Positions 56,307-61,649 of a stretch of DNA of 64,000 nucleotides are shown one piece after another. The stretch is taken from contig NZ_CP019914.1 of the NCBI RefSeq assembly GCF_002214805.1, forward strand, positions 248,001 to 312,000, in the 5' to 3' direction. Origin of the DNA: Brachyspira hampsonii (lineage in GTDB: Bacteria; Spirochaetota; Brachyspiria; Brachyspirales; Brachyspiraceae). The position numbers and the translations under genes were made by a program. How positions within the stretch are numbered: position 1 is the first letter of the stretch; each line of letters begins with the position of its first letter. The notes below the pieces were generated by a model. The model did no database searches, was not told where the DNA came from, and saw nothing but the letters and a program-made list of their open reading frames with translations.

Positions 56307-57296
56307 ATGGTAGCTATAATTGGCGGAGGATTTATAAGTAATATACATGCTCAATGTTATAAAAATCTAGATGTACAAATAGAGGCTATTGCTGATATAA
56401 GCGAAGAAGTAAGAAACAATTTTGCATCTAAATTTAACTGTAAAGCTTATGAATCTGCTGAAAAAATGCTTGAAGAAATATCTGATAAAATAGAAATAGT
56501 AGATATATGTGCACCAACTTTTTTACATGAAGAAATGATTGAACTTGCATATAAATATAACAAACATATTATATGCGAAAAACCTCTATCTATTCATTTA
56601 AATAAAGTTGATGAGATAATATCTAAATTTAAAAATTCTGACAAATATTTAATGACAGCACAGGTAATAAGGTTTTGGCCTGAATATGTAAAAATTAAAG
56701 AATGGATAGATAATGGAACATTAGGAAATATAAAATTAGTATCTGCCAAAAGATTAGCTCAGCATCCGAAAAGTAAATGGTTTTATGATCCTTCTAAAAG
56801 CGGAGGCGGTATATTTGAGCTTCATATACATGATACAGATTTTTTATGCTATTTATTTGGAGATGTAAAAGAAGTATATGCCAACGGATCTCAAGATGAA
56901 AATAAATCTTGGGATTTTATAAACAGTTCTATAAAATTCAAAAACGGTGTGAGTGCGGTTTCGCAAGGAGCTTTCGGAATTACTGAAAATTATCCATTCA
57001 CTGCTAATTTTAAAGTAATAGGAGATAAAGGAACTGCTGAATTCAATCTTTCTGCCGGCGTTAATCTTGACAGCGGAAGTACAAACAGTTTGACACTCTA
57101 TAGAAATGGACATGAACCTATTGTAGAAAATGTCGGAAATAGAGATGCTTATGAAATAGAATTAGAATATTTTATTAACTGTGTGAAAAATAAAACTTAT
57201 CCTGATACTGTTAATTTGGATTCTATTAGAAAATCTATAGAAACGACTATTAATCTAATAAAATCTTTAGAAACTGGAAATGTTATAAAATATTGA
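56307..57296 (+). CDS. Gfo/Idh/MocA-family NAD(P)-dependent dehydrogenase 1
   Basis: 329 residues. The Rossmann domain has IGGGFISNIHAQCY near the N-terminus and the hallmark ICEKPLSIH at about 93-101, whose lysine is catalytic. The substrate domain carries SGGGIFELHIHDTDFLCYLFG, with the conserved H-x-x-D pair. It oxidises or reduces a sugar or inositol. It is clearly paralogous to the next gene; the two probably act in sequence or as a mixed oligomer. AGGAG precedes the ATG, 31 bases after the isomerase gene. Confidence 0.9.
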   Translation: MVAIIGGGFISNIHAQCYKNLDVQIEAIADISEEVRNNFASKFNCKAYESAEKMLEEISDKIEIVDICAPTFLHEEMIELAYKYNKHIICEKPLSIHLNKVDEIISKFKNSDKYLMTAQVIRFWPEYVKIKEWIDNGTLGNIKLVSAKRLAQHPKSKWFYDPSKSGGGIFELHIHDTDFLCYLFGDVKEVYANGSQDENKSWDFINSSIKFKNGVSAVSQGAFGITENYPFTANFKVIGDKGTAEFNLSAGVNLDSGSTNSLTLYRNGHEPIVENVGNRDAYEIELEYFINCVKNKTYPDTVNLDSIRKSIETTINLIKSLETGNVIKY

Positions 57297-57319
57297 TAAT
57301 CTTTATTAAGGAGTAAAAA

Positions 57320-58321
57320 ATGGTAAAAGTGGCAATAGTAGGCGGCGGTTTTATGGGTACAACTCATGCCAAAGGATATAAAAATATTGGTGTAGAAATT
57401 GTTGCTATTGCTGATATAGATAAAAAAGCAAAAGAAGACTTTATGAAAACTTATAATTGTAAAGGATTCGATACTGCTCAAAGTATGATGGAAGCAATAC
57501 ATTCTGAAATAGATTTTCTAGATGTATGCATACCAACTTATCAGCATGAAGAAATGGTTTTACTTGCAGCTAAATATAATAAGCATGTATTAAGTGAAAA
57601 GCCATTTGCTTTGACTTTAGAAGCTATAGACAATATGCTTGACGCTGCTCAAAAAGCTAACAGCATATTTATGATAGGACAGGTACTGCATTTCTGGCCT
57701 GAATATGCTAAAATTAAAGAATGGGTTGATCAAGGCATATTCGGAGAAATTAAATTAGCTACTGCGGTAAGACTTGGTCAGCACCCTGTAAGCGAATGGT
57801 ATGGAGATCCGAAAAAAAGCGGAGGCGGTATATATGACTTGCATGTACATGATATAGATTTCTTATGCTATTTATTTGGAGATGTAAAAGAAGTATATGC
57901 TACAGGAAAAAAAGCTAGAAAAGATTCTTGGAATTTTGTTGACAGTACATTGAGATTCAAAAATGGTGTAAATGCAACTGCTCAGGCGGCTTTCGGTATT
58001 ACTGATAATTATCCTTTCTCTATGAATTTAAGAATAGTAGGAGAAAAAGCTACAGCTGAATTTTCATTCTCAGCAGGATTTAATTTAGAAGATATAGCTT
58101 CTGCAAGAAATTCTTTAATTTTATATAGAAACGGAGAACAGCCTCATCAGGAACCACCAAGCACAAGAGACCCTTATGAAATAGAAGTAGAATATTTTGC
58201 AAATTGCGTTAAAGAAGGCAAGCAGCCTGAAATTGTAAAACCTAAAGAAGTAAAAAAATCTATACAAGCTATTTTAGCTTTGATTAAATCATTAGAAACA
58301 GGTCAGGTAGTTAAAATATAA
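57320..58321 (+). CDS. Gfo/Idh/MocA-family NAD(P)-dependent dehydrogenase 2
   Basis: 333 residues, a tandem paralogue of the preceding protein. VGGGFMGTTHAKGY binds the dinucleotide, LSEKPFALT holds the catalytic lysine, and SGGGIYDLHVHDIDFLCYLFGDVKEVYA is nearly identical to its neighbour. AAGGAG precedes the ATG, 23 bases after dehydrogenase 1. A strong bidirectional terminator follows. The substrate cannot be deduced. Confidence 0.9.
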   Translation: MVKVAIVGGGFMGTTHAKGYKNIGVEIVAIADIDKKAKEDFMKTYNCKGFDTAQSMMEAIHSEIDFLDVCIPTYQHEEMVLLAAKYNKHVLSEKPFALTLEAIDNMLDAAQKANSIFMIGQVLHFWPEYAKIKEWVDQGIFGEIKLATAVRLGQHPVSEWYGDPKKSGGGIYDLHVHDIDFLCYLFGDVKEVYATGKKARKDSWNFVDSTLRFKNGVNATAQAAFGITDNYPFSMNLRIVGEKATAEFSFSAGFNLEDIASARNSLILYRNGEQPHQEPPSTRDPYEIEVEYFANCVKEGKQPEIVKPKEVKKSIQAILALIKSLETGQVVKI

Positions 58322-58379: not shown

Positions 58380-59381
58380 TTATATTACAAATTTTTTAAA
58401 TTCATTTGCAAGTTCATTAGCATTAGTGCCAACAACTATATGAATCTCATTATCATTTATCTTTTCAACAGCCGGAAAATATTTCTTTATACTTTCAATA
58501 TCAACTTTATTAATATCTTTTATTTCTAGTCTTAATCTAGTGGCACAATTACTTACTTTAGTTATATTTTCTATTCCGCCGACTAATGGAAGAAGCAATG
58601 CTGTTTTTACACTTTGGCTTTCTAATAGTTTTTCTAAATCCTTAGCAAGCTCGCTTACAGAAGTTCCGACTATTATATGCAATTCTGTATCACTTATCTT
58701 TTGCACAGCAGGATAATATTTTTTTATCTCTTCAATATTTGCTTTATTAACATCTTTTAAAGTAAGCCTTAATCTAGTAGCACAATTATTAACTTTTAAT
58801 ATATTATCTATTCCTCCAAGCAAAGGAATAAGCATTAATGCATCATTAGCATAAGTCATATTTTGATTATTAGTTTCATAAGAAGTAAGCAACTTTTCTA
58901 AATCCTCAGCAAGATCCCTTACAGAAGTTCCGACTATTATATGCACTTCTTTATCGCTTATCTTTTGTACTGCAGGATAATATTTTTTTATCTCCTCAGC
59001 ATTAACCTTATCAGCATCTTTAACCTCAAGTCTTAATCTAGTAGCACAATTATTTACTTTCACTATATTTTCTCTGCCTCCAATCAAAGGAAGAAGAGTC
59101 ATAGCCATATTAGAAGGATCATCATCAAAAGCTAATATTCTCTCTAAAGATTCAGCTAGTTCGCTGGCATTTGTACCAACTATAATATGTACTTCTGTAT
59201 TACTTATTTTCTGCACTGCAGGATAATATTTTTTTATATCTTCAGCATTTACTTTATCAGCATCTTTAACCTCAAGTCTTAATCTAGTAGCACAATTATT
59301 TACTTTTACTATATTTTCTCTTCCGCCAAGTAAATTCATAGGAAGTATAAACTTTATATCTTTTTTATTTGAATGCATCAT
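58380..59381 (-). CDS. Stand-alone protein of four tandem PTS IIB domains (glucose family)
   Basis: 333 residues composed almost only of four IIB (EIIB-Glc/NagE type) domains of about 75 residues. Each has a phosphocysteine in N-x-C-ATRLRL: C30, C112, C200 and C279. Each also keeps the downstream KKY[YF]PAV[QE]KI and HI[IV]VGT strands. Units 1 and 2 are almost identical over 55 residues (a recent duplication); units 3 and 4 are more diverged. There is no IIC, IIA or membrane segment, so it is cytosolic. Each unit could accept phosphate from the nearby IIA. It lies downstream of the NagE-like permease gene but behind a terminator, so it has its own transcript. AGAGG precedes the ATG. I know no named family with this architecture. 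Confidence 0.9.
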   Translation of the reverse strand: MMHSNKKDIKFILPMNLLGGRENIVKVNNCATRLRLEVKDADKVNAEDIKKYYPAVQKISNTEVHIIVGTNASELAESLERILAFDDDPSNMAMTLLPLIGGRENIVKVNNCATRLRLEVKDADKVNAEEIKKYYPAVQKISDKEVHIIVGTSVRDLAEDLEKLLTSYETNNQNMTYANDALMLIPLLGGIDNILKVNNCATRLRLTLKDVNKANIEEIKKYYPAVQKISDTELHIIVGTSVSELAKDLEKLLESQSVKTALLLPLVGGIENITKVSNCATRLRLEIKDINKVDIESIKKYFPAVEKINDNEIHIVVGTNANELANEFKKFVI

Positions 59382-59440
59382 TAAACCTCTATAATTATAA
59401 TATATAATACTAACACAATATTTATTTTATTTCTAGTAAT

Positions 59441-59474
59441 AAAAAAGGCCTGCAATAATAAAATACTGCAAGCC
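59441..59474 (-). terminator. Terminator of the IIC-IIB permease gene
   Basis: Stem AGGCTTGCA/TGCAGGCCT on the minus strand (59466-59474 with 59446-59454, one G-U pair) followed by six T residues. It separates the permease gene from the four-IIB gene. Confidence 0.82.
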
Positions 59475-59496
59475 TCATATCAATCAATAAATTAAA

Positions 59497-60957
59497 TTAT
59501 TTATTAACTAATTTTTTAAACTCATCTGCCAAGAATTGAACATCAGTACCTACTATAACCTGCACAGAAGTTTTTCCCGGTTTTAATACTCCAGGGAAAG
59601 ATTTCTTAATTTCAGCATCTTTTATTATACTATTATCTTTTACTTCTAATCTCAATCTTGTAGCACAGTTATCAACATTAACTATATTCTCAACACCGCC
59701 TAATAGAGGAAGCAAAAGAATAGCTTTATCAGCATAAGATTTATTAGAAACACCTAAACTTACACCAGCATCAGAATCATCATCTTCTCTTCCAGGAGTT
59801 TTCAAATCAAATTTTCTAATAGCAAAATCGAATATAACAAAATATAATACAAAGAATACTAAACCTTGTACTACCAACATATACCAATTAACAGCTAACG
59901 GATTTCTAGTAGAAAGAACTAAATCTATAAAACCAGCAGAGAATCCGAAACCAGCCATCCATTTCATACTAGCAGCAATAATCAATGATATACAAGTTAA
60001 TGCAGCATGTACTAAATATAAAACAGGAGCAACAAACATAAATGAGAATTCTATAGGTTCTGTAACACCTGTAAAAAAGCTGGCAAAAGCAGCTGCTAAC
60101 ATTATAGATCTGATATTAGCTCTGTTTTCAGGCTTAGCATTTTTAATGAATGCCAAACAAGCACCTACTAATCCGAACATCATAATAGGGAAGAATCCTG
60201 CCTGATACATACCTGTTTGTCCTATAATAGCTTTTCCTGCATCTATAGAAGCCTGACCGCCTAAGAAATTAGGTATATCATTAATACCGGCAACATCAAA
60301 CCAGAATACAGAGTTAAGAGCATGGTGCAAACCAACAGGGATTAATAATCTATTAAAGAAACCATAAATACCTGCTCCTATAGGACCAAGACCTATTATA
60401 GCTTCACCAAATCCTACTAAAGCTCCGTAAACAACAGGCCAAATAAGCATTAAAATAAAAGAAACAACCATCATAACTACAGAAGTTACTATAGGTACAA
60501 ATCTTCTTCCGCTGAAGAATGCTAAAAATTTAGGAAGTTCTACATTCCAGAATTTATTATATAAAGCACCCGCAATAACTCCGCAAAGTATACCTATAAA
60601 TTGGTTATTGATTTTAGCAAAACCAGGAGCTACATCAGCAACATCTTTACTTTGAATCATAGCTACTGTTGCAGGAGCTAAAAGAGTTGTAACAACGAGG
60701 AAAGCAACCAAACCAGCTAGAGCAGCAGCACCATTTCTATCATTAGACATACCGAACGCAACACCAATAGCAAAAAGTATAGGCATATTGTCTATAATAG
60801 AGCCGCCTGCTTTAATGAAAAATGCTGCAACAGGGCTTTGAGCACCCCAGCCATTTGGGTCAATCCAATAACCTATTCCCAAAAGAATAGCTGCAGCTGG
60901 TAATACAGCAACCGGAACCATTAGGGACTTACCTATTCTTTGTAGATAATTAAACAT
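59497..60957 (-). CDS. PTS IIC-IIB permease, glucose superfamily, NagE-like
   Basis: 486 residues. The IIC membrane domain (about 1-385) has NRLLIPVGLHHALNSVFWF, GFFPIMMFGLVGACLAF and TGVTEPIEFSFMFVAPVLYLVHA, and ends in KFDLKTPGRED, the NagE junction sequence. An acidic linker leads to one IIB domain with phosphocysteine C431 (VDNCATRLRL). It imports and phosphorylates a hexose, best guess N-acetylglucosamine. The IIA domain is not fused but encoded divergently at 61185. A consensus-like promoter (61005-61033) and GGAGG precede the ATG. Confidence 0.9.
   Translation of the reverse strand: MFNYLQRIGKSLMVPVAVLPAAAILLGIGYWIDPNGWGAQSPVAAFFIKAGGSIIDNMPILFAIGVAFGMSNDRNGAAALAGLVAFLVVTTLLAPATVAMIQSKDVADVAPGFAKINNQFIGILCGVIAGALYNKFWNVELPKFLAFFSGRRFVPIVTSVVMMVVSFILMLIWPVVYGALVGFGEAIIGLGPIGAGIYGFFNRLLIPVGLHHALNSVFWFDVAGINDIPNFLGGQASIDAGKAIIGQTGMYQAGFFPIMMFGLVGACLAFIKNAKPENRANIRSIMLAAAFASFFTGVTEPIEFSFMFVAPVLYLVHAALTCISLIIAASMKWMAGFGFSAGFIDLVLSTRNPLAVNWYMLVVQGLVFFVLYFVIFDFAIRKFDLKTPGREDDDSDAGVSLGVSNKSYADKAILLLPLLGGVENIVNVDNCATRLRLEVKDNSIIKDAEIKKSFPGVLKPGKTSVQVIVGTDVQFLADEFKKLVNK

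Positions 60958-61169: not shown

Positions 61170-61649
<480 letters not shown>

Follow-up and report, generated by a model that had tools for sequence, protein, structure and literature searches.

Proteins made of tandem glucose-family IIB domains in Brachyspira: a candidate phosphate-accepting layer of the phosphotransferase system

In well-studied bacteria, control of the glucose-family phosphotransferase system (PTS) depends on whether IIA and the membrane-bound IIB are phosphorylated. In E. coli, membrane IIB-Glc also binds Mlc, by a mechanism that needs membrane tethering, and in the actinomycete Streptomyces, NagF is a stand-alone single glucose-family IIB that serves IIC proteins lacking a IIB. 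In Bacillus subtilis, glucose-family IIAs are interchangeable, each serving several IIBs (PMC6148471). The E. coli FruA protein has a duplicated IIB (IIB') which is proposed to function in protein-protein interaction and regulation and reportedly takes no part in phosphoryl transfer (Charbit 1996; PMC2405797, PMC6872149); both of its IIB copies are described there as required for full activity (PMC2405797). The B. hyodysenteriae genome paper treats the PTS in general terms only (PMC2650404). We found no paper describing tandem glucose-family IIBs in a search that left out most subscription journals and is therefore weak evidence of absence.

The gene that we describe lies in a window of 64,000 nucleotides (the whole stretch of DNA that was analyzed) from a 3.19-Mb, Brachyspira-type genome. 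It encodes four such domains in a row, placed by profile, alignment, and model, and we refer to it as the tandem-IIB gene. The features of the locus are as follows.

58380 to 59381, minus strand: tandem-IIB gene, 333 amino acids, ATG start (open reading frame list, PF00367 profile, AlphaFold model)
59136 to 59342, minus strand: IIB domain 1, residues 14 to 82, with Cys30 and His65
58890 to 59096, minus strand: IIB domain 2, residues 96 to 164, with Cys112 and His147
58626 to 58832, minus strand: IIB domain 3, residues 184 to 252, with Cys200 and His235
58389 to 58595, minus strand: IIB domain 4, residues 263 to 331, with Cys279 and His314
59382 to 59444, minus strand: upstream region with a promoter-like block and an AGAGG ribosome-binding site (conservation)
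about 59445 to 59476, minus strand: intrinsic terminator of nagE, a 13-bp stem followed by a T run (terminator scan)
59497 to 60957, minus strand: nagE-type IIC-IIB permease, 486 amino acids, IIB with the canonical Gln (TIGR01998, 638 bits, above the cutoff of 553)
61185 to 61649, plus strand: free glucose-family (IIA-Glc-type) IIA, the likely phosphate donor (PF00358, 157 bits)

On the other side of the gene, two successive GFO/IDH/MocA-type oxidoreductase genes, an apparent tandem duplicate, converge on it (window positions 56307 to 58321).

The tandem-IIB protein matches the Pfam family PF00367 four times, with a total of 187 bits against a cutoff of 27 (E value, 2.8e-56), and matches TIGR00826 with 132.6 bits (cutoff, 45.75). 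The profile search gave no IIC or IIA family match, and the other families listed fall below their curated cutoffs. The NagE-type permease family TIGR01998 reaches 189 bits, short of its cutoff of 553, and only the IIB part is aligned, with no PF02378 match. Each of the four cysteines (30, 112, 200, and 279) is followed directly by A-T-R-L-R. The AlphaFold model (mean pLDDT of 80.7) contains four alike units of the beta1-beta2-helix-beta3-beta4-helix type, and its top Foldseek matches are EIIB-Glc 3bp8_C (TM score of 0.82 by target length), 1o2f_B, and 3bp3_A, which are solved E. coli EIIB-Glc structures, 3bp8 being IIB-Glc in its complex with Mlc. The original prediction, which was made from the letters of the DNA, had described four glucose-family IIB domains with no IIC or IIA, intact phosphocysteines and T-R-L-R at these four positions, and a NagE-like IIC-IIB and a free IIA as neighbors, and all of these points hold.

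A genus-wide PF00367 search, a profile search of 393 spirochete genomes, and the loci retrieved from them were used to follow the spread of the gene. It is present in 18 of 26 Brachyspira genomes, including its own (17 with the four-domain form and 1 with a three-domain form), and absent from the other 8. Two of the carrier genomes have a second tandem-IIB gene of two or three domains; in one (L063) a four-domain gene and a two-domain gene are consecutive, and in the other a four-domain gene and a three-domain gene are on separate contigs (L055 and L056). The number of domains per gene or genome is thus 2, 3, 4, 4+2, or 4+3. In one genome (G007) the gene is divided between two contig ends. Orthologs in 18 genomes, 17 of them with the same four-domain layout, rule out the misassembly of a single-domain gene that the original prediction had named as one way to refute it. 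The search for this architecture across spirochetes that it had called for finds the gene genus-wide in Brachyspira, but the profile search found no free multi-IIB protein in about 370 non-Brachyspira spirochete genomes. The sole relative among these other genomes is in a distant spirochete, G316, whose NagE is a 685-amino-acid IIC-IIB-IIB protein (L101:2966-5023). In that genome, the nagE gene is followed by a gene for an 852-amino-acid IIA-HPr-EI fusion protein (the pair spans L101:2966-7590). Spread on mobile elements was also considered and rejected: plasmid and phage matches cover 200 to 550 bases, a length that corresponds to one or two IIBs from common permeases matching each of the four repeats in turn, and the best plasmid match, on inspection, is a malX-type permease.

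In most carriers the tandem-IIB gene is immediately downstream of nagE, and in most the free IIA gene also adjoins. In three carriers (L053, L054, and L057) it is away from both nagE and the IIA gene and is flanked by a large open reading frame of 1,160 to 1,190 amino acids and an ABC ATPase gene. The free IIA is found in nearly all Brachyspira members, including genomes without the tandem-IIB gene, which rules out an obligate pairing of the two. One carrier, G006, has a nagE gene with a single in-frame stop at codon 125 and the remainder open (L050:4381-5841), upstream of an intact tandem-IIB gene; this single case could stem from the strain or from sequencing.

The active sites are intact throughout this family. 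In the alignment, the C, A, T, and both R residues of C-A-T-R-x-R are kept in 74/74 tandem domains, and C-x-T-R-x-R is likewise invariant in 19 NagE IIBs and in the 5 other IIBs of the genome. By pairwise Nei-Gojobori comparison, the median dN/dS values for domains 1 to 4 are 0.13, 0.28, 0.29, and 0.18, while those of the linkers are 0.54 (linker 1-2), 0.89 (linker 2-3), and 0.31 (the short linker 3-4); linker 2-3 also differs in length among orthologs. Each domain is under purifying selection, and two of the three linkers drift. Because the domains have lower dN/dS than linkers 1-2 and 2-3, it is mainly the IIB units that are conserved, and the protein looks like a string of beads on which every bead has been maintained in a functional state. 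The earlier expectation that none of the four domains is dead agrees with this, and the intact sites in 74/74 domains together with dN/dS values of 0.13 to 0.29, well below 1 for each domain, exclude dead domains.

The tandem domains do, however, differ consistently from canonical IIBs in strand beta4, where His is present in 74/74 tandem domains and Gln in 44/44 canonical IIBs checked in the alignment (19 NagE IIBs, 5 others from the same genome, and 20 from other spirochetes). This Gln, which by our own count corresponds to Q456 of E. coli PtsG, is a regularity seen in this comparison and is no part of any published IIB definition; in literature searched mostly without subscription journals, we found no paper on the role of Gln456. 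At nearby positions, the tandem domains also differ near-invariantly from the NagE IIB by Lys, Tyr, Tyr, Ile, and Glu. In the IIC-IIB-IIB NagE of G316, the extra IIB has His and the second IIB retains Gln. The His of the tandem domains and the beta4 Gln rule are new observations that the original prediction did not contain. The universality of the change suggests that tandem domains act differently from canonical IIBs, and since every extra domain has exchanged the beta4 Gln for His, we infer that they may be specialized away from the canonical hand-over of phosphate to sugar on IIC and that Gln456 may be important for that donation.

In sequence trees, the tandem domains and the nagE IIBs form one group (UFBoot of 98 in IQ-TREE), inside which a clade of tandem domains has support of 70 in IQ-TREE and 0.74 in FastTree. 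The four domains of the protein described here are 51 to 57% identical to the NagE IIB of the same genome. As judged from these sequence comparisons, the tandem-IIB gene descends from the IIB of nagE or of something closely related to it; the simplest source is a duplicated 3' end of nagE. A single origin of the tandem clade is likely, but it is not firm, because the clade has a bootstrap of 70 and because the extra IIB of G316 is placed differently by the two programs, beside the tandem clade by IQ-TREE and with its own partner domain by FastTree. The His shared by that domain and the tandem domains may therefore reflect either common descent or convergence. Within the tandem-IIB gene, the members of the pairs 1-2 and 2-3 (81% and 84% DNA identity, respectively) are more similar to one another than to domain 4. 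These identities, along with the intermixing of domains 2 and 3 in the domain trees, suggest occasional exchange between repeats.

The region upstream of the tandem-IIB gene also holds a conserved element. The promoter-like block TAGAAATAAAATAAATATTGTGTTAGTAT consists of TAGAAA, a spacing of 17 nucleotides, and TAGTAT preceded by TG. The block TAGAAATAAAATAAATATTRTGTTAGTAT and then the ribosome-binding site are kept, with small variations, upstream of 19/19 aligned tandem-IIB genes, including those not beside nagE and both genes of a two-gene genome. Because a consensus promoter scan did not list this block, its role is deduced from conservation, and we regard it as a putative promoter with an extended -10 element. 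Separate transcription of the gene, which had been predicted from the terminator, looks borne out by the nagE terminator together with the promoter-like block upstream of 19 tandem-IIB genes.

In order to consider what the protein might do, the other PTS components of the genome have to be taken into account. There are three IIA-Glc-type domains, one of which is the free protein at 61185, five HPr-type matches, and three matches to PEP-utilizing enzymes, two of which are of EI length. The five glucose-family IICs are an IICBA, NagE, an alpha-glucoside IICB, a sucrose-type IIBC, and a beta-glucoside-type IIBCA, and none of these five lacks a IIB. The two IIB-less IICs in the genome belong to the lactose/cellobiose family (TIGR00410) and have an adjoining PF02302 IIB gene. 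At positions 2473756 to 2476422 (L081:5757-8423), two cellobiose-family IIC genes of 440 to 441 amino acids lie in tandem with one IIB gene alongside. The last IIC of the genome is of the fructose type (IIABC). The genome also has a lone 85-amino-acid IIB of the sucrose/beta-glucoside type, with CATRLR and the canonical Gln (about 521588 to 521845, minus strand; L082:5589-5846), which has no IIC nearby and whose neighbors are repeat-containing and BspA-like in appearance. The earlier suggestion that the tandem-IIB protein is a shared donor for IICs lacking a IIB is not supported and is rejected for this genome: because all glucose-family IICs carry a IIB, there is no client for such a donor.

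We propose, tentatively and with a likelihood somewhat short of even, that the tandem-IIB protein is a soluble multivalent acceptor of IIA phosphate that acts as a buffer or a sensor. The IIB end of nagE, or of a close relative, would have been duplicated and then repeated in tandem, giving independently folded IIB domains on a soluble string that could take phosphate on Cys from a free IIA-Glc-type protein. When PEP is high and sugar is low, the tandem cysteines would become phosphorylated; when sugar drains phospho-IIA, the domains would either return phosphate or, once dephosphorylated, bind IIA or a regulator. Phosphorylation by IIA is suggested because the catalytic Cys and the Arg residues are conserved, and cross-phosphorylation by the free IIA is plausible because the glucose-family IIAs of B. 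subtilis serve several IIBs interchangeably. The adjoining IIA gene at 61185 to 61649 (plus strand) fits the earlier idea of a soluble acceptor beside a free IIA. Because the number of tandem domains varies freely, capacity rather than a fixed geometry may have been selected. Phosphorylation by the free IIA, its reversibility, the buffering role, and the loss of donation to IIC are all inferred from the sequences. A more specific form of this idea, in which His-type IIBs take IIA phosphate without passing it to sugar and domain count tunes capacity, seems to us less likely than not. Two findings count against a buffer or sensor: the free IIA occurs in noncarriers, and three carriers have the gene away from both nagE and IIA.

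A different account is that the four domains act in trans, feeding phosphate to the IIC of NagE or of other IIB-bearing glucose-family permeases for faster transport. The derivation of the domains from or near the nagE IIB and the position of the gene right after nagE in most carriers are consistent with this, as are the extra IIB fused to NagE itself in G316 and the finding, cited in PMC6148471, that in E. coli a cut in the linker leaves IIC and IIB able to work together. Nevertheless, we consider a trans-acting donor rather unlikely, given that every glucose-family IIC of this genome already has a IIB, that the Gln of 44/44 canonical IIBs is lost in every extra domain, that G006 keeps its tandem gene intact despite the stop in nagE, and that three carriers do not have the gene near nagE.

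It is also conceivable that dephosphorylated domains sequester a transcription factor, as membrane IIB-Glc does with Mlc in E. coli, with the soluble, multivalent protein as bait. The best fold match is the IIB-Glc of the Mlc complex 3bp8, multivalency would favor titration, and the genome encodes three ROK proteins of 384 to 418 codons, as is usual for Mlc/NagC-type regulators, and another of 319 codons. Yet the tandem-IIB gene has no linked regulator gene, the Mlc mechanism depends on membrane tethering, and conservation of the catalytic Cys and Arg would be expected for any IIB role, so that a regulator trap seems improbable to us. Near-neutral expansion of a nagE 3' fragment, retained by chance, could account for the variable copy number and for the eight Brachyspira members without the gene. 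The selection data make it very unlikely: sites are intact in 74/74 domains, dN/dS is 0.13 to 0.29 per domain, the promoter-like block is kept in 19/19 genes, and the domains share specific substitutions.

If the tandem domains indeed take IIA phosphate without passing it to sugar, a layer of phosphocarriers would stand between IIA and the permease, one that is undescribed for glucose-family systems in the literature searched. Conservation of a soluble protein with several IIBs and a promoter of its own would mean that some bacteria equip this PTS circuit with an adjustable capacity to accept phosphate. The carriers are intestinal spirochetes that probably use mucin sugars such as GlcNAc, and rapid shifts in sugar supply are likely in that setting. 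The Gln-to-His change offers a one-residue handle for separating sugar-donating from nondonating IIBs.

Compared with the IIB of NagE and PtsG (PF00367, TIGR00826), the tandem domains are alike in fold, in the Cys-x-T-R-L-R site, and in their length of about 75 to 80 residues, but they lack a IIC, occur four to a chain behind their own promoter-like block, and have the beta4 His. The tandem-IIB protein resembles Streptomyces NagF in being a soluble IIB apart from IIC; it differs in having four domains and in coming from a genome without a IIB-less glucose-family IIC. As in E. coli FruA, there are extra IIB copies within a PTS, but FruA is a membrane-bound protein of the fructose family with one extra domain, whereas the tandem-IIB protein keeps all of its active sites. 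The NagE of G316 shares with it an extra glucose-family IIB with the beta4 His, and differs in that its two IIBs are fused to IIC and one is still canonical. The statement that glucose-family systems use one IIB per permease thus stands as the rule and is not universal. The original prediction was sound on the domains and the intact sites and, as it seems, on separate transcription; its IIB-less donor idea is not supported, and it missed the genus-wide spread, the varying domain number, and the His change. What was known is the IIB fold and its phosphorylation site, and what appears new, in the literature searched, is a genus-wide family of soluble tandem-IIB proteins with a variable number of domains.
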